Of a stretch of DNA of 34,300 nt, positions 10,839 to 26,663 are shown piece after piece. Both the position numbers and the translations under genes were made by a program. The DNA lies in contig CAMKGM010000033.1 in NCBI GenBank assembly GCA_946412245.1, positions 1-34,300 of the forward strand, in the 5' to 3' direction. Origin of the DNA: an uncultured Bacteroidales bacterium (GTDB lineage: Bacteria; Bacteroidota; Bacteroidia; Bacteroidales; Muribaculaceae). Position 1 is the stretch's first letter; each line of letters begins with the position of its first letter. The notes beneath the pieces are model-generated. The model was not told the DNA's origin, ran no database searches, and saw only the letters and a list, made by a program, of their open reading frames with translations.

Positions 10839-10865
10839 CCTGTTCGCTTTTTGGGAAACTTAATT

Positions 10866-11393
10866 TTATCTGTATCTAATAATCTTGGCGGGATTTCCAC
10901 CCACAATCGCATAGTCTGGCACATCATGTGTCACAACTGATCCGGCCCCAATAATGGCACCATTGCCTATTCGCTTACATCCTGCTAAAACCGTGACATT
11001 GAAGCCTACCCAAACATTATTGCCAATCTCCAACGAAGTTTTGCCAATATTTCCTTGTTGGCCGATGGGGGTGTTTCTATCTTCAAATTTATGTCCACCA
11101 CCCATTATCAGCATATTTGCGCTCAGCATACAGTAATTTCCAACCTTCAACGAGGAATTGCGCAGCTGAAAACCACTTCGCACACCCACATAATCTCCCA
11201 TGTTCACTTCATTAAAACCAAAAAATGCCCTACGATCAACATGGCCACCTTTACCAAACGAGTTCAACATCCGCCTCGCTAAAAATGTGCGAATCCAGGT
11301 CGAAATGTTGCCAAACACAGGATTTTCCTTTTTAGGCAAATAAAATGCAAAAGAATAATATACGAAATAAGCAATCTTTCTTGAAAACTTCAT
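10866..11393 (-). CDS. Left-handed beta-helix acyltransferase (last gene of the polysaccharide operon)
   Basis: This 175-residue protein belongs to the hexapeptide-repeat O-acetyltransferases (LbetaH fold, maltose-acetyltransferase/WcaF-like). The repeats run from about residue 70 to the end, with [32 protein letters not shown] and the family ending [15 protein letters not shown] chose the ATG at 11393 because it falls 20 bases after the stop of the upstream gene, whereas the longer open frame would run well into that gene. The N-terminal [11 protein letters not shown] may form an amphipathic or membrane-touching helix. It probably acetylates a sugar of the exopolysaccharide in the cytoplasm. 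The donor and acceptor cannot be read from sequence. Confidence 0.9.
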
Positions 11394-11413
11394 AAGATTA
11401 ACTTTTGATGGTT

Positions 11414-12118
11414 TTACAATTTCTTCGTTGCGAGCCACCAAGCATATTTCACAAGGTGAATTTGACGCTTGATGCGTTTGGGCTGTTTCACCAGTCGATA
11501 GGCGAATTCCAAATTGTGATCGACCCACCACTTGGGCGCACGGAGCACATGACCTGTATACACATCGAAACTGCCACCAAGCCCTTGATAGATGGCATCA
11601 CCATGTAATTTCTGCATCTGTTCCATGAGCAGTTCCTGTTTGGGAGAGCCCATGGCCACAAACACCACGTCAGGTTTCTTCTGTGCAATCTCATCCAGTA
11701 ATGCCTGCTTTTCATCATCGCTCTTGATATATCCGTTGCGATAGCCCGCTATCTTAATATCAGGATAATCACCCTTCAGTTTTGCGACAGTCTCGTCTAT
11801 CACCTCCTGCTTGCCACCAACCAAGTAGAAAGATTTCTCAGCATGAAGATGCTCAACAATTTTCAGCCACAACTCGCAACCGGGTATCTTGCAAGCATTT
11901 TTATAGCCTTTCTGTTGCAGAGCCTTCATAGCACCCATACCGTCGCAATAGCCAATGTTGCGGTTTATCAGTGCACGGGTCTCGTCGGTGGCATGCAAGA
12001 TTTTTTCAGCGTTAATTGCCACCAAAATTCCTTTATGCGTGTCAACGTATTGAATCAACTCAGTCACTGACTCAAAGGGCATCACGCCCACCCCGTTAAG
12101 CATCACTTTCTCTTTCAT
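11414..12118 (-). CDS. WecG/TagA/CpsF-family glycosyltransferase
   Basis: The 234-residue protein has the GT26 family hallmarks: [10 protein letters not shown] (35-43), YCDGMGAM (57-64), where the Asp matches the proposed catalytic base of Tag[10 protein letters not shown] (154-162) and [18 protein letters not shown] (181-198). GT26 enzymes transfer ManNAc (TagA) or ManNAcA (WecG) to GlcNAc on an undecaprenyl carrier at the membrane face. With a WecC-type dehydrogenase in the same operon, UDP-ManNAcA is the likely donor here. A GTG lies two codons upstream at 12124, but the ATG at 12118 is preferred. The C-terminal basic and aromatic segment ([16 protein letters not shown]) fits membrane association. 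Confidence 0.92.
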
Positions 12119-12226
12119 AATCACTTAGTTTTTCATGAAACTCAATCAGATTTAAAAACTTGCAATGAATTACTGCAATACCATCAAATAGTCCGTATTT
12201 GCTTGATATAAATCGCCGGGTTGAGT

Positions 12227-13138
12227 TTATTCCCAACGTTGAGGCAGGCGTGGTGCCAACGAGAGGTCAATCAAATCGCCAAGCATAAGATGTGTTTCAT
12301 CCTTATAGTCGCCATCCATCCCTGGAGTGAATGTCATCTCACCAAATATCACCTTGCCGTCAATATTATATAAATCCACTCTCACAAAGGGGAATCCTAC
12401 CGATAAAGCCTTGGCAACCTCTATCATCTTGTCAAAGTTTTTGGGTTTAGGTAACTCTGTGAGTTTCAGGTTAGGATTGTTCTCGTTAAACAATTCGGGA
12501 TGAGACTTCCAGTCCATATCATAGAGATTGCGGTCGGCCAAATGTGTCCCTTCTCGACGATTGGCAAACATACTCACGAACCGTGGCACACCATTAAAGC
12601 AATAGAATTTATAATCAGTTAACGACACTGTGGGATCACCATCTTGAATCAGCAACTTTTCAGCAATAATGCAGGGAGTAATGAGCATGTAATGCGGCTG
12701 ACCGGTGAGATTTCCCAAGCGTAACTTGAGCCAACGATCAAGCTTGCGGTTGGTTTCTTCTATGTTCAACTTTGACTTGTCGCGTACAATCACATTTGAG
12801 GCACATCCATTATTGGTTTTCAGAATAAACTGCTCAGGCAGATTTGCATAATCTATTTCTGCTGTCGTATTGTAAACGCCATAAAGTTCATTAAGTATGT
12901 CCTCGCCCCACATTTGTTTCACATAGTCGCGTACCGCATATTTATCGGCTAGCCGCCCCCACTTGCTCATATCGCAATTACAAACCATCCAAAAGATTTT
13001 TTCGTACCATGTCTTTGGATTCTTTAAATCGGGGAAACGATGGTAGTTATTATAATAACGGGCACGAATAACCGACTTCTTGAAACGTCCAATCAACTTG
13101 TTCAAAGGATTGGCCATGTGGTAATATTTCTCGTTCAT
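12227..13138 (-). CDS. TupA-like ATP-grasp family protein
   Basis: This 303-residue protein matches the ATPgrasp_TupA group: NPKTWYEKIFW near the N terminus, ADKYAVRDYV, EQFILKTNNGCASN (the ATP-binding Lys region), IIAEKLLI, DYKFYCFNG, and the metal-binding end RVDLYNIDGKVIFGEMTFTPG. ATP-grasp enzymes form amide or similar bonds through an acyl phosphate. TupA itself is linked to teichuronopeptide, a uronic acid and amino acid polymer. The neighbouring opine-dehydrogenase-family gene and the UDP-ManNAcA dehydrogenase suggest that this enzyme couples an amino compound to a uronic acid of the polysaccharide. Family assignment is strong; the substrate is inferred. About 108 bases separate it from the WecG-type gene. 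Confidence 0.87.
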   Translation of the reverse strand: MNEKYYHMANPLNKLIGRFKKSVIRARYYNNYHRFPDLKNPKTWYEKIFWMVCNCDMSKWGRLADKYAVRDYVKQMWGEDILNELYGVYNTTAEIDYANLPEQFILKTNNGCASNVIVRDKSKLNIEETNRKLDRWLKLRLGNLTGQPHYMLITPCIIAEKLLIQDGDPTVSLTDYKFYCFNGVPRFVSMFANRREGTHLADRNLYDMDWKSHPELFNENNPNLKLTELPKPKNFDKMIEVAKALSVGFPFVRVDLYNIDGKVIFGEMTFTPGMDGDYKDETHLMLGDLIDLSLAPRLPQRWE

Positions 13139-13174
13139 AATGCTACAATTTATTTACTGAAATTTTGATTAAAA

Positions 13175-14377
13175 TTAATCGACGCAATCTTTGATTGAGT
13201 TGAAACCATACACGCTTGGTATGCCACATTTAAAAGGCGCAGATAAGTCTTTACTATCAAGTAGCAAATTATTATCACTATCTATAAAATGTTCTCCACG
13301 GACAAGTTGAGCCCATTGAAGAATATCATCGATTGTAGGAGTCTTGATGCCCAATTGCTCAGCCATCCATTTGGCTATCATGTTGCCATAGTAAATGTCA
13401 TCCAAGAAGAACCGATGGTTTCTGTCCAACTCCCACAATCCATCGTTGTTTTCCACAACTGGCGTTCCGATTGAAACTAATGTCTGAGAGTTAACAAACG
13501 ACTCTTTCACATCAGTGTTATGCGATTGATAAGAGAATCGCTCCAATGCCAAGTAATCGAGCATATAGCTAAAGTCTTTCTCGGGACAGAGTCTCATAAT
13601 AGCATTTCTGATACAGGTGTAATCGGCATCGAGGTCAGCCAATAGCTGTGCCGACACATCATCATAGTCGCGATAAAACCACGGAACGTCTTCTTTATTT
13701 TTCCACGTTGGCCCATTGACTTTATAGAGTCCCAGGCAACGTGAAGTGTGTATGATTTGATTATCAACCGACAATGTCAATGAGATGAAGTTATCACTTT
13801 GAACAACTTGGCCCTTTCCAAACCACTTGAAACATATTTTTTCAAGCAATTCTTCGTTCACCTGATTGAAATAATGATTGGGATAAACGGCCGCATAATT
13901 GACACTCTTACACCCGTACGTCACTCCTTTATGTCCATATTCAATGATTCGGCAAATCCACGGAATTAACCCAAAAGCAAAAGTCACCAAATTGTTGAGG
14001 TGAAACTCTTTTTTAATCTCATCAACCATCCAGTTCCATCCACCTTGGCCATAAATTGTACCTACGAAAACTGTCTTGTTTTGATTCAGATACGGGGCGA
14101 TTTCATGCAATGCCACTCTGTACTTGTGAACCGGCATACAGAACACCACATAGTCGGCATCAGTGAACAACTCGGCCGGATTATTTGATGCTTTTTTTAT
14201 ACTGCCGTCATAATAGCCAAGCACTTTTCCTGAAGGATCATGCCATTCAAGCTCTATATTTGAGGCCCATTGTTGTGGACGTGACGTATAAATTGAGACC
14301 TCAAAACCGGAATTATTTAATAGGGGTATCAACGTGTGAGCACTACTGCCCCCCCCACATACAACTAGTTTCTTCAT
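13175..14377 (-). CDS. Octopine/opine dehydrogenase family protein
   Basis: The 400-residue protein has an N-terminal NAD(P)-binding Rossmann loop, VVCGGGSSAHTL (5-16), and a C-terminal octopine-dehydrogenase domain. His210 (in DNQIIHTSRCLG), Arg322 and Asp327 (in HRFFLDDIYYG) keep the same relative spacing as the catalytic His212, Arg324 and Asp329 that I recall for scallop octopine dehydrogenase. Such enzymes reductively condense an alpha-keto acid with an amino acid. The placement between a TupA-type ATP-grasp gene and an acyltransferase inside a polysaccharide operon implies the product is a surface-polymer substituent and not a fermentation end product. Codons 8-10 are GGG GGG GGC, giving a G8 tract that could slip. 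Family assignment is good; the substrates are unknown. Confidence 0.87.
   Translation of the reverse strand: MKKLVVCGGGSSAHTLIPLLNNSGFEVSIYTSRPQQWASNIELEWHDPSGKVLGYYDGSIKKASNNPAELFTDADYVVFCMPVHKYRVALHEIAPYLNQNKTVFVGTIYGQGGWNWMVDEIKKEFHLNNLVTFAFGLIPWICRIIEYGHKGVTYGCKSVNYAAVYPNHYFNQVNEELLEKICFKWFGKGQVVQSDNFISLTLSVDNQIIHTSRCLGLYKVNGPTWKNKEDVPWFYRDYDDVSAQLLADLDADYTCIRNAIMRLCPEKDFSYMLDYLALERFSYQSHNTDVKESFVNSQTLVSIGTPVVENNDGLWELDRNHRFFLDDIYYGNMIAKWMAEQLGIKTPTIDDILQWAQLVRGEHFIDSDNNLLLDSKDLSAPFKCGIPSVYGFNSIKDCVD
14349..14356 (-). repeat. G8 homopolymer at the start of the opine dehydrogenase gene
   Basis: Eight consecutive C residues on the plus strand (G8 on the coding strand) encode the glycines of the Rossmann loop, 21 bases after the ATG. 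Loss or gain of one base would frameshift the gene near its start. Confidence 0.85.
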
Positions 14378-14418: not shown

Positions 14419-14868
14419 TTAATTGTCATTGGTTTGCGTATCGTCTTTAACCAGATGTCCAAATCGGCCGGTTTTGATACCTGTTTTTATTATTTTTGCA
14501 GGATTGCCTGCCACGATACAATGACTCGGTACATCTTTTGTCACCACAGCACCGGCACCCACTATCACTTCGTCGCCAATAGTGACGCCTGGCATAATAA
14601 TGGCATTCACACCGATAAAGCAACGCTTACCAATCTTTGTGTTAAGCCTGCCGGTGAGGCGTGCAAAGTCATGAGCCAAAACTGTGACTCCTGATGCCAA
14701 ATAGCTCTCATCGTCAATAAAAATGCCTTTGGGGGCTGCCTTATCTAAATAAACCCGCCACGAAACCCTGGCGGTTTTTGAAATATGCATTCCCTTGACA
14801 CGACGAAGGTAAGCACCACGCAGGTCAACAATCACACCGCGAATTCGTGTTCTCAACTGTAATCTCAT
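14419..14868 (-). CDS. Hexapeptide-repeat acyltransferase
   Basis: The 149-residue protein is a short LbetaH acyltransferase of the serine-acetyltransferase/WcaF-like group. The motifs are [52 protein letters not shown] and [10 protein letters not shown]. It should acetylate a sugar precursor or repeat unit using acetyl-CoA in the cytoplasm. The N terminus is arginine-rich and has no signal. It lies ten bases after the GT4 gene and 41 bases before the opine dehydrogenase gene. With the gene at 10866-11393 the operon has two acyltransferases, which fits a polymer carrying more than one acyl group. The exact target is unknown. Confidence 0.89.
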
Positions 14869-14878
14869 AGTGTGCGAT

Positions 14879-15949
14879 TTATTTCAGTAACTCCGAATAT
14901 ATTTCTGTTAGTTTATTTGAAACTGAGCTCGGAAAATACTTGTTAACTCTTTCGAAAGATTGCTCGCCCATAGACTTAACAAGCATTTTGTCATCAATCA
15001 AGCAATTAATTCTTTTTATAAACTCACTGCCATTGCCCGGCTCAACCAAGAATCCATTAACTCCGTCACTAATAACCGATGGGATGCCCCCTACCGGTGT
15101 TGAGATAACAGGCAGTCGGTAAGACATGGCCTCAAGTATTGAAATCGGTAAGCCTTCAGTATAAGATGGCAAGACAAGCGCATCGCTGAGGCACAAGAGA
15201 TTATGTTTGGCTTCACTGTCAACCCACCCCTCATATTTAACAATATCTTGCAAACCCTTATCATATATTTCATTCTTGAGTCGTGACACCATTCCATTAC
15301 CTGCTATGTGAAACTGAAGTATTCCATGCAATTGCTCTTCGTTGTCGCCAATTGCTTGCAAGAGGTCAAAAACACCTTTTTCTTCATTTATCAAGCCTAA
15401 GAACAAGAGGTGAAATTTCTTATCGTTTTGTTTCTTCTCAAAAGATTGTGGCTCAGGAATCACATTAGGGACGACTGAAACATTGTCACATTGCAGGTCA
15501 TTTTGAAACCAATCTTGCCACTCATCTGACAATACAACAATTCTATCACACTTATTCAGTGCTTTCTTTACATAAGTTTCGTTCCCGCTACTATAATATG
15601 TCTTAAAACCACCACCATGAATGTGCATGATAATCTTCTTGTTAAATAATCGGGCAATGCTCACAAACCAAGAAGAGCGCTTGAAACTGAAATTAGAAGC
15701 CGTGTGAATGTGAATAATCTTAACTTGTCTTTTGAAAGTAAGAGTTATAACAAATTGAAGTAATGAAGCAATTAACCTGTATATTTTCTTTAAGCGATTC
15801 CCATCACAAGAGTTTGCAATAAAACGAAACTCATTTTCAGGAAAAATGTATTTGCTATAATTGTATATAGTTTGAGCTATCCCACCTTTTGGCGGTAAAT
15901 ACTCGGGGCCTATAGTTACAATCGCATTTGCAGTTCTTAAAGGTATCAT
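14879..15949 (-). CDS. Glycosyltransferase family 4
   Basis: This 356-residue protein has the GT-B fold of family GT4. The N-terminal donor/acceptor half opens with a glycine-rich [14 protein letters not shown] segment, and [10 protein letters not shown] follows. The C-terminal half has [17 protein letters not shown] and the [11 protein letters not shown] (from about residue 265) that carries the E-x7-E motif of retaining GT4 enzymes. It probably adds one sugar of the repeat unit at the cytoplasmic membrane face. Its ATG directly abuts the stop codon of the preceding polymerase-like gene, so translation is probably coupled. The sugar specificity cannot be read from sequence. Confidence 0.93.
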
Positions 15950-17299
15950 TTAACGATAATTAAAGACAACAATCAGCGCTATTGCCAACAAGAAATAGAG
16001 TTTATCCCATTTTAAAATGTGTCGTTCTTCTCGCCAACAAATCAATCCGTAGACGGCTAAAATAATTGTGAATGGCATGTGCGGCCACTGATAGCGATCG
16101 TGTTGTGCAAACAAGGTAAATAATAACATTACTGTGTTAAGAAGGTAAAATAAGAAAACACCAATTAATTCATAATGCTTATTTTTGAATGCGCCATAAA
16201 TGCCATATATAAAAAAGAACGAGTAAAAGACCTTGCAGAACGACGAGAAACTATATAAGGTGATATAATTCTGCTTAACGAGTTCCTCTGCCACCAAATT
16301 GGGAAAAGGTCCCACCACTGAAGCCAAATAATTCAAAGCATAAATTAAAGAACCGCTTCTTTTTGCTTTATCATCTGCTATCTCTTGCAAGAAGTCATAA
16401 CTATATCCATGTTGCAGAGCTAACTCGTCAATTGTTTGATAAGCATAAATCATTGCTAATATTGCAAGAAATATGATGAAGACATAAATATAACGCTTAA
16501 CCAGTGGGAATTTTAAAGCCACAACATATCCTAGAACACACAGTAGCATATAGAACACCGATGTTCTGAACAACAGCAATGGCAAAGAAAAAATGATAGC
16601 AAGGATTAGATCTTTCGACAAGACACTTTTGTGAACCCTCATTATATAATATATGGCCATAATAATAAACATGACCATAAAGTTCTCCTTTAATCCAACA
16701 GAAGCAGTATATACCCCATATAATTCTGTACCCCAAAAGAATGCTATGAAACAAGAAGATTCTTTCTCAAAAAACAAGTTAGACAACTTATAGAGAAAAT
16801 AACAAGATATAACAACGGCTATAACATTAAACAATACAAGTAGTTGCACTCCCATTTCAGGATCTCCTGACAAAGAATACACCAAATACACAATAATGTT
16901 AAATCCCATATCATCAACTTGACCCACATTTGATTCCAAATACCTTATAAAACCTACAAAAGATAAATCAATATGCGACCCATTCCTGTGATAAAACATG
17001 GCATCCTGAGGGTCATAACCTAACGGATTATCAAAATAATCTATATTAAAGAAACGCAGGCCAAAGCAACATACTAGTTGGAAAATAATGATAATCAACA
17101 GTGTTTTCGAAATAGAGCGCCTTTCATATAGCAATGAGAAGAACACTATCATCACCATTCCCAGCATCTGCATCACCACTATAGGCAAGTCTGGCACCTT
17201 ATTTTTCATTGCGAAAAAGAAGATGGCATAGAATAGTAAATAATATATGGCAGCAAGTCTAAAGAACCTCCGTGTTTCCCAAGTGCTGAGCAAATTCAT
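15950..17299 (-). CDS. Multi-spanning membrane protein, probable O-antigen/EPS polymerase (Wzy-like)
   Basis: The 449-residue protein is strongly hydrophobic, with roughly ten to twelve predicted membrane segments. A larger extracytoplasmic stretch near residues 85-115 includes PLGYDPQDAMFYHRNGSHI. Such a layout fits Wzy polymerases, which are recognised by topology more than by motif. It could also be a GT-C-type transferase. It lies between the GT32 and GT4 genes and abuts the latter with no gap. A second polymerase-like gene (19371-20522) is in the same operon, so one of the two may have another role. The gene is very AT-rich compared with the flanking housekeeping genes, as is usual for polymerases. 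Confidence 0.75.
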   Translation of the reverse strand: MNLLSTWETRRFFRLAAIYYLLFYAIFFFAMKNKVPDLPIVVMQMLGMVMIVFFSLLYERRSISKTLLIIIIFQLVCCFGLRFFNIDYFDNPLGYDPQDAMFYHRNGSHIDLSFVGFIRYLESNVGQVDDMGFNIIVYLVYSLSGDPEMGVQLLVLFNVIAVVISCYFLYKLSNLFFEKESSCFIAFFWGTELYGVYTASVGLKENFMVMFIIMAIYYIMRVHKSVLSKDLILAIIFSLPLLLFRTSVFYMLLCVLGYVVALKFPLVKRYIYVFIIFLAILAMIYAYQTIDELALQHGYSYDFLQEIADDKAKRSGSLIYALNYLASVVGPFPNLVAEELVKQNYITLYSFSSFCKVFYSFFFIYGIYGAFKNKHYELIGVFLFYLLNTVMLLFTLFAQHDRYQWPHMPFTIILAVYGLICWREERHILKWDKLYFLLAIALIVVFNYR

Positions 17300-17337: not shown

Positions 17338-18063
17338 CTATCTCCGTCCACAAATAAACCTCTTTAACTGCACTAGTCTATAGGTTATGGAAGAACCTAA
17401 AAAACGAACCAAGCGCTTTTTAAATCTTGTCTTCGGACTTGTCCAAGAGCCGGCATAATAATGAATGCAAACTGTATTATCAGTTTTCTTTAACACATAG
17501 CCATTATGATCAATTGGACAGAAATAATCTTTGGGGTAAAAAGTAACAAATCCCGGGAAATCTTGATAAGTATTGTTCTGTTTAAGTCCATACGCCAACA
17601 TAAATTCAGTAATGACTGCAACATTTGTTGTCATATCCATTTCACCATCTTTATTAATGAAATGTCGACCATTGTAATAATCCAAATTCAATTTTGCCCA
17701 TTCACCGCCTTTTTCACTAGCCATCACACCTGTTGGCACTTCTGTTTCACTCTCAAATCCGGAGAACGCGACATGATGAAGGAATGGATTATATGAACTG
17801 ATTACCTCAACATCGGTATCCATATAAATTCCACCTTCGTGGTAAAGCGCATAAAGACGAACCACATCAGTCACAAAAGCATACTTCTTGTTATCGTATG
17901 CCTCTCGAACATATGGATACATATCAAGGTCAAAGTTATCTTCATTCCACTCCTTGATTTCATAATCAGGAAGATACTTCCTCCAAGACTCAATGCATTT
18001 TTGAGCCAACTTGGGCAAAGGGTTATGACCAAACCAACAATAATGTATAACTTTGGGTATCAT
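17338..18063 (-). CDS. GT32-type glycosyltransferase with DXD motif
   Basis: This 241-residue protein has the features of the glycosyltransferase sugar-binding DXD family (GT32, Och1/capsular type). It starts with IPKVIHYCWFGHNPLP, has the WNEDNFDLD segment, then FVTDVVRLYALYHEGGIYMDTDVE with the metal-binding D82-T83-D84. It ends with a basic region (TRFKKRLVRF) that may contact the membrane. It should add one sugar to the growing repeat unit in the cytoplasm. It follows the flippase gene after five bases and precedes the polymerase-like gene by 38 bases. Donor sugar unknown. Confidence 0.91.
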   Translation of the reverse strand: MIPKVIHYCWFGHNPLPKLAQKCIESWRKYLPDYEIKEWNEDNFDLDMYPYVREAYDNKKYAFVTDVVRLYALYHEGGIYMDTDVEVISSYNPFLHHVAFSGFESETEVPTGVMASEKGGEWAKLNLDYYNGRHFINKDGEMDMTTNVAVITEFMLAYGLKQNNTYQDFPGFVTFYPKDYFCPIDHNGYVLKKTDNTVCIHYYAGSWTSPKTRFKKRLVRFLGSSITYRLVQLKRFICGRR

Positions 18064-18068
18064 AATAT

Positions 18069-19367
18069 CTAAATTTTAATTATCTTGAGATAAGTATACT
18101 GTATCGCGCCATATACAATGTAACCAATAAGGACACCAAATGCAACACCTGATACTTGATATCCCATTTGTACAAAGATATAAGCCAATATAATGGTGGT
18201 AAAAGACCATATTACACTCATGCCAAGCCAAATCCACATCTTGGCCAAACTTGAAATTGATATTCCCAATACAGTCGAGATTGACGTGAAAATGGTTGAA
18301 AAAGCTAAGATGATTAATGGCTGAGAATCATTGAATCCTTTACCATATAAACTCATAATATAATTACTCAGAATAAATATCACAATCGACAATGTGGTAG
18401 TTATGATGACATTTATTAGAATATTGGTGTGTAGAACTTTCCAAAACCTACGTTTCTCATTCTTTTCAAGACTCGACATGATGGGTAAAATGATGTTACT
18501 GATTGTAGCGGGAATAAACAACAAAATGAGTTTCCACTGATCGGCTACATCATAAATGGCTAATTCTCCATAACCCGATGAACGCGCCAAAATTGTTCGT
18601 AAAATCCAAAATGTGGGTCCGGCCAACAAGGTAGATAATGCAGCTGGTAAAGTATAACTGAAAAGCAACTTCAAATCGCTTCGCCTGAAATGTGACAGTT
18701 TCACATCTACGTTATGGGCCTTAAAGTCTCTATTGATTAGCCATTTATTGAAAATCGCCTTCAACATAAATCCACTTCCATACCCTATAACGGCACCCAA
18801 TATTCCATAATAATAACCCATCACCACCATACCGACAGCCTCAAACACACTGCACAATAAATTACTGAATGCTATTGACTTGAAGCTTTCAAATCCCGCC
18901 AATGTGGCATCTTGCGCGGTGTTTAAGATGGTAAACAAGAGTACCAAAGATGAAACTTTGATGGGCACAGTCAAGTCTACCGCATGAAGAACATTGACTG
19001 CAAGCGTCTCGGCAAACAAAAATACCAACAGAGAAACAATGATTGCAAAAAGCAACGCAAAGCCATTGGTCAGCAAATAAATAGAGCTAATGTGATCTTT
19101 TTCAGTCTTTCTATACTCCGCAATGAATTTCGTCGCGGTGACACCCAAACCAAAACTACCAAGCACAACAAACATGCCTAAGGTAGACTTGACCATTCCG
19201 AATTTTCCATAATCCTCTTTTCCTAAAATGTGCGCGCAAACAATGCCGGCAATCAACACCAGCAGCTTAGATATGGTGGAACCTAATAATGACCAAAAAG
19301 CACCCGACGCCATTCGACGGGCTATATCTGAATTCTTATATTTTTCAACAATTGATTTGATTCCCAT
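18069..19367 (-). CDS. Polysaccharide flippase (Wzx-like)
   Basis: The 432-residue protein has about twelve membrane segments and the family pattern of polysaccharide transport proteins (MOP superfamily). It opens with ARRMASGAFWSLLGSTISKLL and has YGKFGMVKSTLGMFVVLG and LAGFESFKSIAFSN, all common in Wzx proteins. It should move the undecaprenyl-linked repeat unit across the inner membrane for polymerisation. It is flanked at three and five bases by the EpsG-like and GT32 genes, so the genes are tightly coupled. Confidence 0.93.
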   Translation of the reverse strand: MGIKSIVEKYKNSDIARRMASGAFWSLLGSTISKLLVLIAGIVCAHILGKEDYGKFGMVKSTLGMFVVLGSFGLGVTATKFIAEYRKTEKDHISSIYLLTNGFALLFAIIVSLLVFLFAETLAVNVLHAVDLTVPIKVSSLVLLFTILNTAQDATLAGFESFKSIAFSNLLCSVFEAVGMVVMGYYYGILGAVIGYGSGFMLKAIFNKWLINRDFKAHNVDVKLSHFRRSDLKLLFSYTLPAALSTLLAGPTFWILRTILARSSGYGELAIYDVADQWKLILLFIPATISNIILPIMSSLEKNEKRRFWKVLHTNILINVIITTTLSIVIFILSNYIMSLYGKGFNDSQPLIILAFSTIFTSISTVLGISISSLAKMWIWLGMSVIWSFTTIILAYIFVQMGYQVSGVAFGVLIGYIVYGAIQYTYLKIIKI

Positions 19368-19370
19368 TCA

Positions 19371-20522
19371 TTAAAATATGAAATGGTAAAACAATGACTG
19401 CTGAGACACTTCACTAGCCGACACCTTTATAATATCTATTATAGTATATGAGCAAGGTATTAGACAACATACAGTCGCTTTAAGATATTGTTTCGTAGCA
19501 ATCAGGTAAGTGACACAGTAGGCTATCATAATAACAATAAATATATAAAGGTATTCCACTGGCCTTAGCATGGAGTGATGCGTGTTCATCATTATATTTT
19601 CATAACATGTACCGACGAAGGCAAGCAAAAAGAAAATGGGTAACAACTTGTCACTTTTAAAATAGCTTTTAACCTGCGGATAAAAATAGATGAAAATAAA
19701 TGATGACAACAAAGATATCAAATGCAAAGGCCCCCAACCGATATTTCGGAACTGGCCATGAATGACATCAACCAAGTGATGGCCATACTTATGATATCCG
19801 ATGAAGTCCAAAAAGTCAGGCACGAAACCGAGCAACCTAAACCAAATGGGCCAAATGCCCAAAATGACACATGCCACAAATATTATAAGTAGTACTTTAG
19901 GGGATTTTGGGTTGACTTTTATGAATGGCAGGAAATAAAACACGATGAGCAACCATGCCGACTTATGAATTGTGATTGCCAGTAGAGTTAACAAAAAATA
20001 AGGGATAAACTTACGTTGCTCAATGAGTGGAATCATTGCAACCAGCATCATCGAGATGGTCCACTGACGCATGAATGTCAGGTAATTAAAACCATAAGGG
20101 CCTAAGATAAGAATCATTCCCACCCACGGCAACAGATGTTTGTGATGACGCAAGCCAAAGTAAAGTGCAAAGGCCTGAATTAAACCCCAAAAGCCAAAAT
20201 AAAATGCGAAATGAAGACCTGATGCTGCAAATAGCCTTGTAATCCAGTAAAAGCCTATTTCCAGGTCAACTCTGGCAAATTCTCCTGTTTCTCTAACATG
20301 CTGAAATTGTTTCAAATACATATCGTAGTCACTGCCAGTCTGGAATCTGAGACCCATCATTAGCGTGACCACTATAATTGAAACAACAATCTCCCAACTC
20401 CAAAATGGGAGTTCAGCGTCGGGCTTTAATAATTTGAGTTGACTTTCTCGCCGATTAAGATGCCACCCAAGAAAAAAGAGAATTAAAGAAACACCAATAT
20501 ATACCAGCAGACTTTGAATCAT
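19371..20522 (-). CDS. EpsG-family membrane protein, probable polysaccharide polymerase
   Basis: This hydrophobic protein of 383 residues has about ten membrane segments. The segment GLRFQTGSDYDMYLKQF is typical of EpsG/Wzy-like proteins, in which a conserved Arg and a G-x-DY-x-x-Y motif lie after the first membrane helices. I start it at the ATG at 20522; the frame can be read from a TTG at 20531, but nothing favours that. It lies 15 bases after wecC and three bases before the flippase. It probably polymerises repeat units on the periplasmic side. A second polymerase-like gene sits at 15950-17299. Confidence 0.85.
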   Translation of the reverse strand: MIQSLLVYIGVSLILFFLGWHLNRRESQLKLLKPDAELPFWSWEIVVSIIVVTLMMGLRFQTGSDYDMYLKQFQHVRETGEFARVDLEIGFYWITRLFAASGLHFAFYFGFWGLIQAFALYFGLRHHKHLLPWVGMILILGPYGFNYLTFMRQWTISMMLVAMIPLIEQRKFIPYFLLTLLAITIHKSAWLLIVFYFLPFIKVNPKSPKVLLIIFVACVILGIWPIWFRLLGFVPDFLDFIGYHKYGHHLVDVIHGQFRNIGWGPLHLISLLSSFIFIYFYPQVKSYFKSDKLLPIFFLLAFVGTCYENIMMNTHHSMLRPVEYLYIFIVIMIAYCVTYLIATKQYLKATVCCLIPCSYTIIDIIKVSASEVSQQSLFYHFIF

Positions 20523-20537
20523 GGAAAGCAAATACTT

Positions 20538-21749
20538 TTATCTACCCTTAAAGATGCCGCAGAGGTCAATAATCACCTTATCGTCACGCCAGGGCAGGGT
20601 CTTGAATTGGTCATGAGCTGTTAAGAATACGATAATGTCGGCTTTTTCGTATGCGACTTGATAATCGGTCAATTTAAACACCTTGTGGGCTTTCAGGTTG
20701 GGTTCAACCACCATGATATCGGCATTATTGCAACCCTGCATCACATCGGTTGTAATGCGCTTGGCCGGTGACTCGCGCAAGTCATCAATATTGGGTTTGA
20801 AAGCCAATCCCATCATGGCAACCACAGGCTTGCGGTGATGATCAAGTTCAAACTTAATCATTGCATTCTTAACCTTCTCGGCACTCCATTTAGCCTTATA
20901 GTTGTTGATTTCTCGTGCTGCTGCAATGATTTTGGCCTGTTCAGGAAAAGCGGCCGTAATGAAATAAGGATCAACAGCAATGCAGTGCCCGCCCACGCCA
21001 CAACCGGGTTGCAGGATGTTGACGCGAGGATGCTTGTTTGCGAGTGCTATCAGTTCCCAAACATCAATCCCGGCTTTATCGCAAATGATTGACAACTCAT
21101 TAGCGAACGCAATCTGGACATCACGGCTTGAGTTCTCGGTCAGCTTGCACATCTCGGCCGTGCGGGCATTGGTCTTGTGCAGCTGGCCTTTCACAAACTG
21201 CGAATAGAAGGCAACAGCCTTGTCGGTCGACGCGCTGTCAATGCCACCTATCACTCGGTCATTATGAATCAACTCATAGATAATATTGCCGGGCAACACC
21301 CGTTCAGGACAGTACGCAATGTAAATCTTTCCTTTCAACTCAGGCCGCTCCGCGAAAATGATGTCGGCCATTTGCTCGGTAGTGCCTATTGGAGAAGTGG
21401 ATTCGATGACAAAGAGGTCACCCTCTTTCAGATACGGAATCACATTGCGAGTCGCAGTTTCGACATACGACACATCCGGTTCATGATTTCCCTTAAAAGG
21501 AGTAGGCACCACAATCAGATACACATCGCTCTGCTGAGGTTTTATGTCGGCATGCAACTTGCCCGCCGACACCATTTCCTGCAGCATCTCTTGCAATCCC
21601 GGCTCTACGATGTGAAGTTCACCGGCGTTAGTTCTTTCTACAATTGACCGGTTGACATCAACGCCAAGCACATCCATGTTGCCATATTTTGCCGCCATGA
21701 TTGCGGTAGGCAAGCCTATATATCCGAGTCCTATAAAACAAACTTTCAT
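20538..21749 (-). CDS. wecC: UDP-N-acetyl-D-mannosamine dehydrogenase (WecC-type nucleotide sugar dehydrogenase)
   Basis: The 403-residue enzyme should oxidise UDP-ManNAc with two NAD to UDP-ManNAcA, a uronic acid donor. It shows the N-terminal NAD loop FIGLGYIGLPTA, the central ESTSPIGTTE and ENSSRDVQIAFANEL segments, and the catalytic Cys256 in CGVGGHCIAVDPYF. The sequence around ICDKAGIDVWELIALANKHPRVN matches WecC and not UDP-glucose dehydrogenase. The partner epimerase gene wecB is not in this window and would have to be elsewhere. UDP-ManNAcA is a fitting donor for the WecG/TagA-type transferase in the same operon, and its carboxyl group could carry an amide substituent. Confidence 0.92.
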   Translation of the reverse strand: MKVCFIGLGYIGLPTAIMAAKYGNMDVLGVDVNRSIVERTNAGELHIVEPGLQEMLQEMVSAGKLHADIKPQQSDVYLIVVPTPFKGNHEPDVSYVETATRNVIPYLKEGDLFVIESTSPIGTTEQMADIIFAERPELKGKIYIAYCPERVLPGNIIYELIHNDRVIGGIDSASTDKAVAFYSQFVKGQLHKTNARTAEMCKLTENSSRDVQIAFANELSIICDKAGIDVWELIALANKHPRVNILQPGCGVGGHCIAVDPYFITAAFPEQAKIIAAAREINNYKAKWSAEKVKNAMIKFELDHHRKPVVAMMGLAFKPNIDDLRESPAKRITTDVMQGCNNADIMVVEPNLKAHKVFKLTDYQVAYEKADIIVFLTAHDQFKTLPWRDDKVIIDLCGIFKGR

Positions 21750-21781: not shown

Positions 21782-24202
21782 TTAAGATTTCTTTTGATTG
21801 CCGTAACCATAGCCGTAGCCATAGCCGTAACCATAGCCATAACGACGGTAACCATAGCCATTCGATTCGTCGGAGGTTCCGTTCAGTATCAGCACCAGTT
21901 TGTTGTAACGGCCATCTTCGTAGTTGCGTTGCAACTCATTGAGCATATTCTTGTCAAACAGACCGGAACGCACAACGAACACGGTCATATCGCAGAACTT
22001 GTTCACAATAGTGGCATCAGCCACAATCTCGATGGGCGGGCAGTCAATAAATATGTAGTCATACCTTTCGCGCATTTCTTGAAGCATTCCCTCCAAGCGG
22101 TCGCTAAAGAGCAACTCAGTGGGATTGGGAGGAATTGTACCCACAGGCATCACATCAAGATACTCGTTGAGTTCACCTTTCACCATCACGTCGTCTAAGT
22201 TGTCATAGTGTTCGCTCAAGTAATCTGACACACCCTTTGTGGGACTTTTGACAAACGTTGACATGGAGGCCTTGCGCAAATCAAGGTCAATGAGCAGCAC
22301 CCTCTTTTTCTTAATGGCAAAACTCAATGCCAAGTTAGTTGAGATGAAGGTCTTACCTGAACCGGCATTGGCTGATGTGAACATGATAATCTTTGAAGCA
22401 CCTTCCTTGCCTGAAATAAATTCCAAATTCGTACGCACCACACGGAACGCCTCGTTAATCACATTGCCACTCTTTTCCTTGACCACAATTTCTCGTACGT
22501 CCTTACGTCTATTAAACAAGGCAAGAATGCCACGATGTTTCTTGTAAGACAACGGAATCTCGCCAATGAACGGAACCGTCACACCTTCAAGGTCTCGACG
22601 TGACCTCACTGCAGTGTCAAAGCTGTTCATGATTAACAAGATAATGAGTGGAATCAGTATGCCCAGCAACAACGCAACAAGCATCACATTGAATTTGACC
22701 GGTTTCGAGGGTTTCATGCTTCCTGATGGCGGATTCAAAAGCTTGGTGTTATAGGCGGTAAATGCCTTTGACAACTGATTCTCTTCGCGCTTCTGGAGAA
22801 GGAATACATATAATTGCTCTTTCACTTTCTGTTGGCGTTCAACGCTCAACAAATCTTTTGCCTGTGTAGGATTTGAAGCAATCTGCTGACGCGTTTGGCT
22901 CTCAGTTCCCTGCAATGAACTGATGCGCTCGTTCAGCACCGCAGTTGTATTATCAATGGCTGCAGTGATGGCATTCTTGGTTGCAATCAGTTCCTGGTCA
23001 AGATCTTGCACCAACGGATTTGAGGGGTTACTGTTAGCCAACAGATTATTCCTCCTGATGACCTTTTCATTGTAGTCCGCAATCTGCTGAGCCACTGAGG
23101 GGTTGTCAATTCCTGAATTTGCGGGCAGTACACTAAAGTCCTTACCGGTATTCCCTAATTGACGCCTAATGTACTTGGCCATATAGAGTTGATTCTTCAA
23201 ATCAAGTAACTGACTTGACGTATTTTCAGAGCGTGCCATATAAACACTTGAAGCCGCTTGCACGTCAGGCACCATGTGCTGACTCTTATATGATGATATA
23301 TTCTCATCAACATTGCCCAGTTCACGCTCTATTTGCCGCAATTCTTCGTCAATGAAGTTTGAGGTACTGATTGCTTGTTGATTAATGTCTTCAATCCATT
23401 TCTCATTATAGACCACAAACAGGTTATTCAGCACGTCCTCAGCTCGCTCCGGAGAGACGTCGTCAAACCGCAAATCCACCACTGAAGCTTTCTCGTCGCT
23501 TTGATCAACGCGTAGCCTTGACGAATAAGATTTTGAAACACCACTATAACCACCGCGAGTCACATAGATTTTCTTGTCAAATTTGCCTATGTAATTGTTA
23601 GTTGGAGCAATCATCAGTTTGCCAATAGGGGTTTGAACCACAGTTCCCAACTTCGAGGTTATCGGTTTCGATGATTTCTCTGCGCCTTGCAAATAAAAGT
23701 CGCTCAGTTGCACCTTGCTGTCATCCAACAGTTTCATTATGAACGAAGCGCTCTGCTCAGGCTTCACATCCAGGAAATTGACAGTCACAGGCAGTGTGCT
23801 TCCATAAAGCACTTCCTTATGAAATGCGCCATCAATTTCATAGTTTACATCCAGATGCAGTTTCTTGACCACATCTATCATATAAGTAGGAGACTTGAGC
23901 GTAATCATCTCGTTATGCAGATTCATTCTGCTATTCTTTGCACCCATTGACGAAAACTGACCAAAGTCTCGAGATATAGACTGATTCTTATCATCGTCAC
24001 GTATCAGCAACGAAGCTTGACGCGTGTATACAGGTTGTGTCATCGTGATATACATCACGCCTAACGACAACGCAATCAGCAACGATATCAGAAACCAATA
24101 CCAATTCTTGACACACAAGTACAAGAGATCTTGGAAATTGATTCCTTCATCATTTGACTGCTGATTATTCGCTTTTGAATTATTATATGATTCTTCTGCC
24201 AT
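21782..24202 (-). CDS. wzc: Polysaccharide co-polymerase and tyrosine autokinase (Wzc-type)
   Basis: The 806-residue inner-membrane protein combines a Wzz chain-length domain with a cytoplasmic BY-kinase. The N-terminal membrane helix follows NWYWFLISLL. A long periplasmic coiled-coil region follows, then a second helix (MLVALLLGILIPLIILLIM). The kinase has Walker A SANAGSGKT (about 610-618), Walker A' LLIDLDLRKA (about 636-645) and Walker B IFIDCPP. The C terminus is a Tyr-Gly tail of about 20 residues with many tyrosines, the usual autophosphorylation cluster, encoded by hexanucleotide repeats. It controls chain length and works with Wza in export. No Wzb phosphatase gene is seen in the operon. 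The gene lies ten bases after wza. Confidence 0.96.
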   Translation of the reverse strand: MAEESYNNSKANNQQSNDEGINFQDLLYLCVKNWYWFLISLLIALSLGVMYITMTQPVYTRQASLLIRDDDKNQSISRDFGQFSSMGAKNSRMNLHNEMITLKSPTYMIDVVKKLHLDVNYEIDGAFHKEVLYGSTLPVTVNFLDVKPEQSASFIMKLLDDSKVQLSDFYLQGAEKSSKPITSKLGTVVQTPIGKLMIAPTNNYIGKFDKKIYVTRGGYSGVSKSYSSRLRVDQSDEKASVVDLRFDDVSPERAEDVLNNLFVVYNEKWIEDINQQAISTSNFIDEELRQIERELGNVDENISSYKSQHMVPDVQAASSVYMARSENTSSQLLDLKNQLYMAKYIRRQLGNTGKDFSVLPANSGIDNPSVAQQIADYNEKVIRRNNLLANSNPSNPLVQDLDQELIATKNAITAAIDNTTAVLNERISSLQGTESQTRQQIASNPTQAKDLLSVERQQKVKEQLYVFLLQKREENQLSKAFTAYNTKLLNPPSGSMKPSKPVKFNVMLVALLLGILIPLIILLIMNSFDTAVRSRRDLEGVTVPFIGEIPLSYKKHRGILALFNRRKDVREIVVKEKSGNVINEAFRVVRTNLEFISGKEGASKIIMFTSANAGSGKTFISTNLALSFAIKKKRVLLIDLDLRKASMSTFVKSPTKGVSDYLSEHYDNLDDVMVKGELNEYLDVMPVGTIPPNPTELLFSDRLEGMLQEMRERYDYIFIDCPPIEIVADATIVNKFCDMTVFVVRSGLFDKNMLNELQRNYEDGRYNKLVLILNGTSDESNGYGYRRYGYGYGYGYGYGYGNQKKS
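21801..21842 (-). repeat. Seven hexanucleotide repeats encoding the Tyr-Gly tail of Wzc
   Basis: Seven near-identical hexamers of the form CCATAG/CCGTAA (plus strand) lie head to tail just before the wzc stop codon. Each encodes one Tyr-Gly pair, so slippage would change tail length without a frameshift. Confidence 0.85.
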
Positions 24203-24211
24203 AGCTCTATT

Positions 24212-25006
24212 TTACTTTACAATCAATACTATAATTGTTGTGAGCAGCGATGCCGCCGATATCCACAAAGCCGGAGTCAAGAAAGAGTTTCCTAATGCCG
24301 AAGCCTCGCGCGCTTTCTTTTCATTGGGCTCAACGTAGACAATGTCGTTCTGCTGCAGGTAGAATACCGGCGATGTGTAAAGACTATTGGCATCAGTCAA
24401 GTTCACTCGATAAGACTTCTGTTGGCCGTTTTCCAGTCGCATCACTAGCACATTCTCGCGCACACCAAAAATTGTCAAGTCGCCGGCACGGCTCAATGCG
24501 TCAAGAATCGAAACTTGGTCATGGTCAATAATGAAACGACCTGGCGACTTCACCTCACCCATCACTGAGAAATACATATCCAAAAAATCGACGGTCACTT
24601 GAGGATCTTTCAGTTCTCCTCGCTGAATTAAGGTGTTCTTAATAAAATTACCCACTTCGCTACGAGTCATCCCTGAAACATGCAAACTGCCCAAAATCGG
24701 AAAATCTATGCATCCATCGGGATTCACTGTGTAGTTTGCCACAGTTGAGGTCGACAATCCTTGTCCGGATGTGGCCGAACGGTAGTGCCCAACAACCGGC
24801 AAATTGAATAAATAAGCCAACTCAGGGTTCTTACTGCTCACCAAAATTGACAGTTTATCACCGGGTTGCAACCTGACAATGCGGTTGTCGGTAATCGACT
24901 TGCTTTCTCCGTCTTTCACATCTTGGAAATAGCTCACCTTAGGTGTCTCACACGATACCATGAGCAGACCCGCCGCCACGGCAATCATTAAATGTTTAAA
25001 TTTCAT
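24212..25006 (-). CDS. wza: Polysaccharide export outer-membrane lipoprotein (Wza-type)
   Basis: The 264-residue protein starts with a lipoprotein signal (lysine-containing start, hydrophobic run, MVSC with the Cys at residue 19). The Poly_export segment follows with VRLQPGDKLSILVSSKNPEL, VNPDGCIDFPILGSLHVSG, then a SLBB-like region with MGEVKSPGRF and LDALSRAGDL, and NDIVYVEPNEKKA. The C terminus ends in a hydrophobic helix (PALWISAASLLTTIIVLIV), as in Wza-type outer-membrane channels. It would form the outer-membrane exit for the polymer. It overlaps the WecA-like gene by four bases (ATGA) and is followed by wzc. Confidence 0.95.
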   Translation of the reverse strand: MKFKHLMIAVAAGLLMVSCETPKVSYFQDVKDGESKSITDNRIVRLQPGDKLSILVSSKNPELAYLFNLPVVGHYRSATSGQGLSTSTVANYTVNPDGCIDFPILGSLHVSGMTRSEVGNFIKNTLIQRGELKDPQVTVDFLDMYFSVMGEVKSPGRFIIDHDQVSILDALSRAGDLTIFGVRENVLVMRLENGQQKSYRVNLTDANSLYTSPVFYLQQNDIVYVEPNEKKAREASALGNSFLTPALWISAASLLTTIIVLIVK

Positions 25007-26103
25007 TTTTTATGTCTTTTGATTTTTAATTGTCTTGATATTATCATCATAATCAGTATCCATAAAATCAGCTCACAATTGAATACTAAATTTATGTTAA
25101 AATGCAATGACAGGAAAAACGATGAAACAATCATCAATACCGACAAAGACAACATTACCAGCAATGTCTTGCGCTGATTCTGGTCAAATATTTCAAGTAG
25201 CATGTGATGCACATGACTCTTGTCGGCTAAGAACGGGCTGCGATGCTGATACAGACGAACAAACACCACACGCACCACATCAAAACACGGGACCAAAAGC
25301 GGCGAAAACACCAACACGAATGGTGTGATCCCCGTATCAATAACACTTTGCGATGAATTCAATGCTATACCTATATAGCCTAACATGAATCCTAATACAA
25401 GCGATCCCGTATCGCCCATAAACAATTTTTTGTGTTTCTCTTGTTTCCCGAAAATGTTAAACGACATAAATGCCGAAACGGCACCAAGCATGACTATTGA
25501 AATCAATGCAAACCAATACTCGCCACAGCACAACGAAACTATCGCATGGGTTATGAGGCAAATCGCACACAAACCGCTGGCTAAGCCATCAATGCCGTCT
25601 ATGAAATTAATCGCATTTGTAATCAATAAGATGGCAAATATGGTCAAAACATAGCCTGCCCACATGGGAAGCTCGAAGTTCATGCCAAATAAGCCATACA
25701 AATGATTGAGCCATGTCCCGGAAAAACACAAAAGCAAGCCGGCAGCAATCTGAGCCAAGAACTTCGTTCTGTAACGTAACCCCTTCAGGTCATCATACAA
25801 ACCAAATGCAAACAATATCGTTGCACCACACAACACCGGTGCGACATCGTCATCATGAGTTCTGAACAGAGACATATCAATGTGGTCAGTAACTCTTGCC
25901 ACAAACCATACCAAAGTCACCGTCACTAAAGACGACAGATATATTGCCACACCGCCAAGTCTGGGTATTCTGCCCTTGTGTATTTTTCTTTCTTCTACAG
26001 TATCAAACAACGAGTACTTATAAGCAATTGAGAGCGTGAACAATATCACACACACTGCCAAAGCGGCACTAATCAAATATGATATGATGTAGATGAATGT
26101 CAT
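25003..26103 (-). CDS. Undecaprenyl-phosphate sugar-1-phosphate transferase (WecA/MraY family)
   Basis: This 366-residue polytopic protein belongs to the glycosyltransferase 4 membrane family. It has the short loop HKGRIPRLGG, the Asp pair GLYDDLKGL, the NAINFIDGIDGLASG motif and FMGDTGSLVLGF, which are the metal and nucleotide sites of WecA. It should start the repeat unit by placing GlcNAc-1-P, or a related HexNAc-1-P, on undecaprenyl phosphate. Its start overlaps the stop of the UpxY gene by four bases (ATGA) and its stop overlaps the wza start in the same way, so translation is coupled. WecA specificity for GlcNAc is likely but not proved. Confidence 0.94.
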   Translation of the reverse strand: MTFIYIISYLISAALAVCVILFTLSIAYKYSLFDTVEERKIHKGRIPRLGGVAIYLSSLVTVTLVWFVARVTDHIDMSLFRTHDDDVAPVLCGATILFAFGLYDDLKGLRYRTKFLAQIAAGLLLCFSGTWLNHLYGLFGMNFELPMWAGYVLTIFAILLITNAINFIDGIDGLASGLCAICLITHAIVSLCCGEYWFALISIVMLGAVSAFMSFNIFGKQEKHKKLFMGDTGSLVLGFMLGYIGIALNSSQSVIDTGITPFVLVFSPLLVPCFDVVRVVFVRLYQHRSPFLADKSHVHHMLLEIFDQNQRKTLLVMLSLSVLMIVSSFFLSLHFNINLVFNCELILWILIMMIISRQLKIKRHKK

Positions 26104-26663
26104 GGGTCTAAAACTTCAATAAAGTCTGAACTGATTGTAGCCATTGCTACCGATATCACATTCTGTATCTGAACCACTACGCGCTTGCTTCGTTTGCCTT
26201 CTATCTTGACAAACAGTCCTTCAATTCCATCAAAAGCACCTCCATGAATGCGCACCCTCGCTCCCTTTGACACATTCACCTCCTCCGGTTTCAGATACAC
26301 TAAAGACTCATCATAGTTATTAGTCACTGCAATGAAGTCTCTCATCTGACCATCTGGTACAATAATAGGCACATTCTTTCCGTCTTCACGACAGGTCATG
26401 TACTGGAGATGCGGAACTTGGGTTTTGAAATCTTGAATGAACGACTTGGTAGTGTGTACAAAAATCAAATTATGGACTACCGGTTCCAAGACACGAATTC
26501 TCTTACCGACACGTGACGTTTTCAAACGATAATGCATCGGTATGTATGTTTCTATAGACAGCGCGTCAAGCTGCGCCTTTACACTTAGCTCGCGCTTGTA
26601 GGTTACCCTCATTGCAAACCATTGAAGGGCTTCTACAGAGATATTTTCAGTGTCTTTGGTCAA
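26100..26663 (-). CDS. UpxY-family transcription antiterminator (NusG-like)
   Basis: The 187-residue protein has an N-terminal NGN domain (WFAMRVTYKRELSVKAQLDA, then YIPMHYRLK) and a C-terminal KOW motif (VSKGARVRIHGGAFDGIEGLF). UpxY proteins are specialised NusG paralogues that ride RNA polymerase through long capsule operons. It is the first gene of the operon here. The frame can begin only after a TAG at 26669-26667, and the first plausible start is TTG at 26663. The first ATG is residue 18 and would cut through the first strand of the NGN domain, so TTG is preferred. No UpxZ partner gene follows; the WecA-like gene comes next with a four-base overlap. Confidence 0.9.
   Translation of the reverse strand: MTKDTENISVEALQWFAMRVTYKRELSVKAQLDALSIETYIPMHYRLKTSRVGKRIRVLEPVVHNLIFVHTTKSFIQDFKTQVPHLQYMTCREDGKNVPIIVPDGQMRDFIAVTNNYDESLVYLKPEEVNVSKGARVRIHGGAFDGIEGLFVKIEGKRSKRVVVQIQNVISVAMATISSDFIEVLDP

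Follow-up and report, generated by a model that had tools for sequence, protein, structure and literature searches.

Why should a gene for an opine dehydrogenase lie beside one for a TupA-like ligase inside an operon for a surface polysaccharide? This question is raised by a 34,300-nucleotide stretch of DNA (contig CAMKGM010000033.1, hereafter the window) of an uncultured Bacteroidales bacterium. On its minus strand, an open reading frame (ORF) for a 400-residue opine dehydrogenase homologue (13175–14377) is followed, after a gap of 36 base pairs (bp), by one for a 303-residue TupA-like ATP-grasp ligase (12227–13138). The former matched the family Octopine_DH (PF02317) at 75.9 bits (gathering cut-off 30) and the latter ATPgrasp_TupA (PF14305) at 143.2 bits (gathering cut-off 25), so that the adjacency of an octopine-dehydrogenase-family gene and a TupA gene described in an initial annotation of this DNA was confirmed. 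No terminator-like stem was found between the two genes. The assembly (138 contigs, 98% complete, 3.17 Mb) contains one PF02317 match and one PF14305 match, both belonging to this pair. Joint action of the two genes on a surface polymer is well supported, and we lean towards a reading, based on homology and precedent, in which an opine made by the dehydrogenase would be amide-linked by the ligase to a uronic acid of the operon's polymer, likely N-acetylmannosaminuronic acid (ManNAcA).

The closest PDB sequence to the dehydrogenase was the scallop octopine dehydrogenase (E = 1.8e-24). Homology to this Pecten maximus enzyme (PDB ID: 3c7a, 3c7d, and 3iqd) extended over the full length, with 28% identity at 371 aligned positions. 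H210, R322, and D327 of the window protein aligned with H212, R324, and D329 of octopine dehydrogenase at identical spacing, as the initial annotation had noticed, and Q111 and C142 corresponded in the same alignment to Q118 and C148. We take Asp329 to be the aspartate of the catalytic dyad and likewise presume a role for Gln118. By alignment, the window protein thus possesses a His-Asp catalytic dyad (H210 and D327) and the arginine that senses reduced nicotinamide adenine dinucleotide (NADH; R322). These five residues were the same in all 21 aligned sequences, one of which is the window protein; the sequences are 69–83% identical to it, so that the invariance alone is weak evidence. A dyad, an arginine sensor, and substrate contacts of Trp278 and Cys148 are described for octopine dehydrogenase in its report (PMC2924402). 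The predicted structure of the window protein (mean predicted local distance difference test score, pLDDT, 82.7) exhibited the two-domain fold of opine dehydrogenases, which occupied all of the top 12 VIA rows. That the enzyme is instead a keto-acid or related reductase, which would supply a hydroxy acid and not an opine for the ligase to attach, appears to us improbable.

For the ligase, 25 columns were invariant in an alignment of 23 TupA homologues sharing 27–54% identity with the window protein. They include K66, K107, D255, and E267, which we assign as putative ATP or Mg ligands. Identity of the window TupA was 54% to P0122, a general TupA, and 27–39% to 12 aligned TupAs from 11 further dehydrogenase loci. 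No ATP-grasp protein was found when it was aligned against PDB sequences, and no NCBIfam model matched. Two TupA-like proteins offer a functional comparison. For the Campylobacter jejuni capsule, PMC11800379 reports that the TupA-like domain Cj1438C uses adenosine triphosphate (ATP) and serinol phosphate or ethanolamine phosphate in amidating glucuronic acid. TupA of Bacillus halodurans is linked in PMC8153356 to the polyglutamate/polyglucuronate polymer of teichuronopeptide. By description, the window protein resembles both in being a TupA-like protein of a surface-polymer pathway; unlike Cj1438C, which is a C-terminal domain working with serinol phosphate or ethanolamine phosphate, it is a stand-alone protein paired with an opine dehydrogenase.

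The recurrence of this pairing was evaluated among relatives of the dehydrogenase, 80 of 89 of which were kept (L051, for which no dehydrogenase ORF was recovered, is missing from the later counts). The window sits in a supported dehydrogenase clade of 35 loci, and 45 relatives lie outside. Carboxylate-activating ligases were counted as TupA, ATPgrasp_ST, PylC-like, LysX/RimK-like, and PaaK-like proteins, and expected counts were obtained by shuffling the dehydrogenase position among the slots within eight genes. A ligase was immediately adjacent to the dehydrogenase in 32 of the 35 clade loci (6.2 expected, P = 5e-24) and in 16/18 at 80% dereplication (3.2 expected, P = 7e-12). Under a strict rule of same strand and hidden Markov model (HMM) E ≤ 1e-20, the figures were 30/35 (6.0 expected, P = 2e-21) and, dereplicated, 15/18 (3.1 expected, P = 5e-11); all these P values treat the loci as independent, and dereplication at 80–95% removes relatedness only partly. 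TupA, the family named in advance, was by itself adjacent in 17 of the 18 clade loci having it within eight genes, and in 16/17 under the strict same-strand rule (P = 2e-13; dereplicated 7/8, P = 1e-5). The co-occurrence proposed in the initial annotation was hence borne out at the level of loci. TupA lies on the upstream side of the dehydrogenase in 14 loci and on its downstream side in the window, L014, and L028, in the last of these on the opposite strand, while the dehydrogenase of seven clade loci is paired with adenosine monophosphate (AMP) ligases whose profile matches PaaK-like acid-activating ligases. An enrichment arising merely from ligase-rich loci was considered, and the slot-randomized expectations were far below the observed adjacency. 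Nine control gene clusters of the same loci, with the dehydrogenase removed, had a ligase neighbor in 36/113 cases, a figure inflated because the genes flanking the removed dehydrogenase become ligase neighbors. A second, shorter dehydrogenase-family gene (341–374 residues) was observed six genes from the first in L004, L023, and L029.

The ligase beside the dehydrogenase was exchanged repeatedly. On a quick tree of 77 dehydrogenase rows with several long branches, from which the truncated L069, L080, and L081 were left off while being retained in the neighbor counts, the ligase type of the ligase-paired rows switched at least 10 times, with the ATPgrasp_ST-plus-LysX-like combination of L025 scored as its own state, and a minimum of 20 times when the lack of a ligase was scored as a state. 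A tree of 81 TupAs required at least 5 switches of the dehydrogenase-adjacent state; this tree is biased since 60 of 120 listed database proteins were used, all nearest relatives of the window TupA. By recurrence, a pairing with exchange of partners is well supported, and the dehydrogenase appears to be the partner that stays the same, with the ligase and, presumably, the uronic acid varying across the clade. A broader proposal is that a modular glycan-decoration cassette of Bacteroidales is built around this single dehydrogenase lineage as its unchanging part. One characteristic opine would be joined by at least five ligase families to different uronic or amino sugars, and such decorated glycans would be widespread though so far unrecognized; we regard it as an attractive possibility falling a little short of probable.

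What the pair would produce can be proposed from these families and from known glycans. The dehydrogenase would join an amino group to a 2-keto acid, for which pyruvate is the probable candidate, by reductive condensation, leading to an opine-like amino acid. The ligase would then activate a sugar carboxylate in an ATP-dependent manner and couple it, as an amide, to a free amino group of the opine product, giving a decorated uronic acid in the polymer assembled and exported by the operon. As a TupA-type ligase requires a free amine, a diamine or diamino acid is favored as the base, and the opine would most likely be formed on one nitrogen of a compound such as lysine. This can be compared with Providencia rustigianii O14, for which a review (PMC10609480) describes N-epsilon-(1-carboxyethyl)lysine amide-linked to galacturonic acid; the Providencia precedent invoked by the initial annotation is thus present in that review.

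The acceptor in this genome would most likely be ManNAcA, which is favored because the operon carries both WecC and a WecG-family transferase. The WecC-type uridine diphosphate (UDP)-N-acetylmannosamine dehydrogenase (20538–21749, minus strand) scored 515.5 bits against an NCBIfam equivalog cut-off of 459 bits and is the likely source of UDP-ManNAcA, judged from its sequence; WecB, which is required for UDP-N-acetylmannosamine (UDP-ManNAc), is encoded outside the operon, elsewhere in the assembly. Directly downstream of TupA lies a WecG/TagA/CpsF-family glycosyltransferase gene (11414–12124, minus strand; PF03808), a candidate ManNAc(A) transferase. A UDP-sugar dehydrogenase was present in 13/35 clade segments and in 10 of the 18 TupA loci, and its gene adjoins that of TupA in L002, L015, L018, and L032. 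NCBIfam scans of the window enzyme and of seven out of the other twelve gave as best models a WecC-type one for the window and L011, a TviB-like one for L015, L022, and L025, and an Ugd-like one for L002, L014, and L019, of which only the WecC-type ones exceeded their equivalog cut-off. Such variety suits a ligase matched to a changing uronic acid, though genes of this kind are common in glycan loci.

The amide could also be formed in the reverse sense, with the opine's own carboxylate activated by the ligase to acylate an amino sugar, as with the alanopine derivative of 4-amino-4-deoxyquinovose (Qui4N) that the same review lists for Providencia alcalifaciens O35. The seven loci with PaaK-like AMP ligases beside the dehydrogenase and a DegT-type aminotransferase in L015 are consistent with this chemistry. 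In the window operon, however, no aminotransferase was found among the ORFs scanned, a uronate dehydrogenase is encoded, and the TupA-like precedent, Cj1438C, is reported to activate a sugar carboxyl. Activation of the uronate and of the opine are both chemically precedented, given Cj1438C, Providencia O14, and O35; the former is preferred in view of the precedent for TupA and the presence of WecC, and the latter seems to us rather unlikely for this operon. The decorations of Providencia O14 and O35, which are O-antigen structures, are the kinds predicted from the genes for the window polymer.

Several observations weigh against the joint synthesis of an opine-decorated uronic acid. The first concern the substrate pocket. 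The Glu142 side chain of octopine dehydrogenase contacts the guanidinium group of arginine according to PMC2924402. This residue is replaced by Gly136 in the window protein, a glycine invariant in the 21 aligned sequences, and the window protein hence lacks the feature that would mark an octopine dehydrogenase in the narrow sense, namely a Glu142 contacting the guanidinium of an L-arginine substrate. The HMMER alignment shows a gap at Trp278, leaving it without an aligned counterpart; the active-site tryptophan is termed conserved across opine dehydrogenases in PMC10787698. The window protein thus differs from the Pecten enzyme in the residue at Glu142 and in being encoded by a polysaccharide operon. 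Octopine itself is an unlikely product since Glu142 is replaced by Gly136; most likely, the window enzyme is an opine dehydrogenase acting on some amine that is not arginine. Of the initial interpretation, joint action on a surface polymer gained support from the recurrent adjacency, and the chemistry of keto acid, amine, and sugar carboxyl is a prediction from homology and precedent.

Other points concern the neighborhoods. Ligase families other than TupA were picked after the neighborhoods had been viewed, and ATPgrasp_ST alone was not significantly adjacent (2/6 at 80% dereplication, P = 0.25; likewise at 80–90%). The strict rule was failed by five clade loci: L005 and L008 are on short contigs, L007 has its TupA three genes off, L028 carries it on the opposite strand, and the neighbor in L077 is a weak PylC-like match (E = 3.8e-11) with a stronger one two genes away; the ATPgrasp_ST of L024, another loose case, is divided between two ORFs. 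No UDP-sugar dehydrogenase was seen in 8/18 TupA segments. Outside the clade, 14/45 relatives had a recognized adjacent ligase, all LysX-like, some of the contigs being short. Among 297 genomes sampled from the same bacterial family, in which PF02317 was detected in 53 (60 match rows) and PF14305 in 82, TupA occurred in 17/53 PF02317-positive genomes versus 82/297 overall, so that the co-occurrence expected by the initial annotation was hardly raised at the genome level. In a third PF02317 group of this family, no ligase was adjacent in 9/9 loci.

These results bear on the proposal that the two genes are independent, with the dehydrogenase working in redox or opine metabolism and TupA attaching a different amine, for instance serinol or an amino acid. 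It would explain why 31/45 relatives outside the clade have no recognized adjacent ligase, which suggests that the dehydrogenase lineage also has other work, and why the PF02317 and TupA domains did not lie within 1.5 kb of each other in 12 of the 17 sampled genomes having both. It does not fit the same-strand adjacency in 16/17 clade loci with a nearby TupA, the exchange of ligase type on the tree, or the five of these 17 genomes in which the domains were within 1.5 kb (random placement would give 0.03). Independence of the two genes is accordingly given little credence, as little as the hydroxy-acid proposal. The strand cases, the weak-hit cases, and the missing genome-level enrichment slightly lowered our confidence in amide-linking of an opine to the uronic acid, which we continue to prefer.

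The operon around the pair is that of a Wzx/Wzy/Wzc/Wza system with a WecC-type dehydrogenase, families that the initial annotation had named and that were all found. All of its genes are on the minus strand. It begins with a NusG-family gene (26100–26663), which we take to be possibly a UpxY-like locus-specific antiterminator. This is followed in the order of transcription by genes for a WecA/MraY-family initiating transferase (25003–26103; PF00953), a Wza-like export protein (24212–25006; PF02563), a Wzc-like chain-length determinant/tyrosine autokinase (21782–24202), the WecC-type dehydrogenase, an EpsG-type Wzy polymerase (19371–20531; PF14897), a Wzx-like flippase (18069–19367; PF01943), a DXD-type glycosyltransferase (17338–18063; PF04488), a PMT_2-like protein (15950–17299), a GT4-type glycosyltransferase (14879–15949), and a hexapeptide acyltransferase-like protein directly upstream of the dehydrogenase (14419–14868). 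After the dehydrogenase, the TupA ligase, and the WecG-family transferase comes a second hexapeptide acyltransferase-like protein (10866–11318, the scanned part of a GTG-started frame at 10866–11531), the last gene before a 13-pair terminator-like stem at 10841–10808. Counts of promoter-like and terminator-like elements across the operon region were near the shuffled expectation.

Other PF02317 genes were found in different settings. Among the five genomes with close domains, three had a different PF02317 subfamily, and two of these had TupA on both sides. Twenty PF02317 regions were inspected, of which three (L129, L135, and L136) were picked for a nearby TupA and 17 came from the best-scoring rows. 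TupA was adjacent to the PF02317 gene in 3/3 of the former; of the latter, 8 had a PylC-like ATP-grasp directly upstream and the 9 of the third group did not, one of these having a PylC-like match five genes away. A ligase neighbor as a trait of any PF02317 gene in the bacterial family was rejected on the basis of this third group. The eight loci with the upstream PylC-like gene form a second group (L117–L124), in which a 615–668-residue protein comes next in 7/8. In L118, the PylC-like protein, the one scanned, also matched an L-amino-acid-ligase C-terminal domain, and the copy of the larger protein had no Pfam match. In the third group, a 602–612-residue protein adjoins or lies near the PF02317 gene (L126, L128, L131, L132, and L134), and the one scanned, from L134, was a nucleotidyltransferase-aminotransferase fusion by Pfam; an aminoalkyl compound may be the precursor from which this group forms an opine. 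An apparent pair of the dehydrogenase and a LysX-like ATP-grasp, 74–266 bp apart, was observed in L033, L034, L036, L037, and L048, mostly metagenome-assembled genomes labeled as Zixiibacteriota, with the other neighbors outside the shared gene clusters; this pair may make a small molecule. The dehydrogenase is also accompanied by a LysX-like ligase in a cultured marine relative, Pseudoalteromonas luteoviolacea (L076). Many dehydrogenase relatives in marine Bacteroidales and other phyla (L038–L047 and L049–L057) had no recognized adjacent ligase.

Carboxyethyl-amino-acid decorations of bacterial O-antigens are already known as structures, and carboxyethyl-lysine polymers are known from Proteus and Shewanella. 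In the open-licence PubMed Central literature, the extent of our search, no paper was found that connects an opine dehydrogenase with a carboxyethyl-bearing O-antigen, an octopine dehydrogenase with an O-antigen, or an opine dehydrogenase with ATP-grasp; subscription journals were outside its scope. The new element is the gene pair with its exchangeable ligase, and not the opine-decorated glycan. If our proposal is true, the system would be a natural one for joining one opine to different sugars via exchangeable ligases. The pair would also be a genetic signature of opine-decorated glycans and would predict their presence in many uncultured Bacteroidales, in which the glycans of the surface matter for host and phage recognition.
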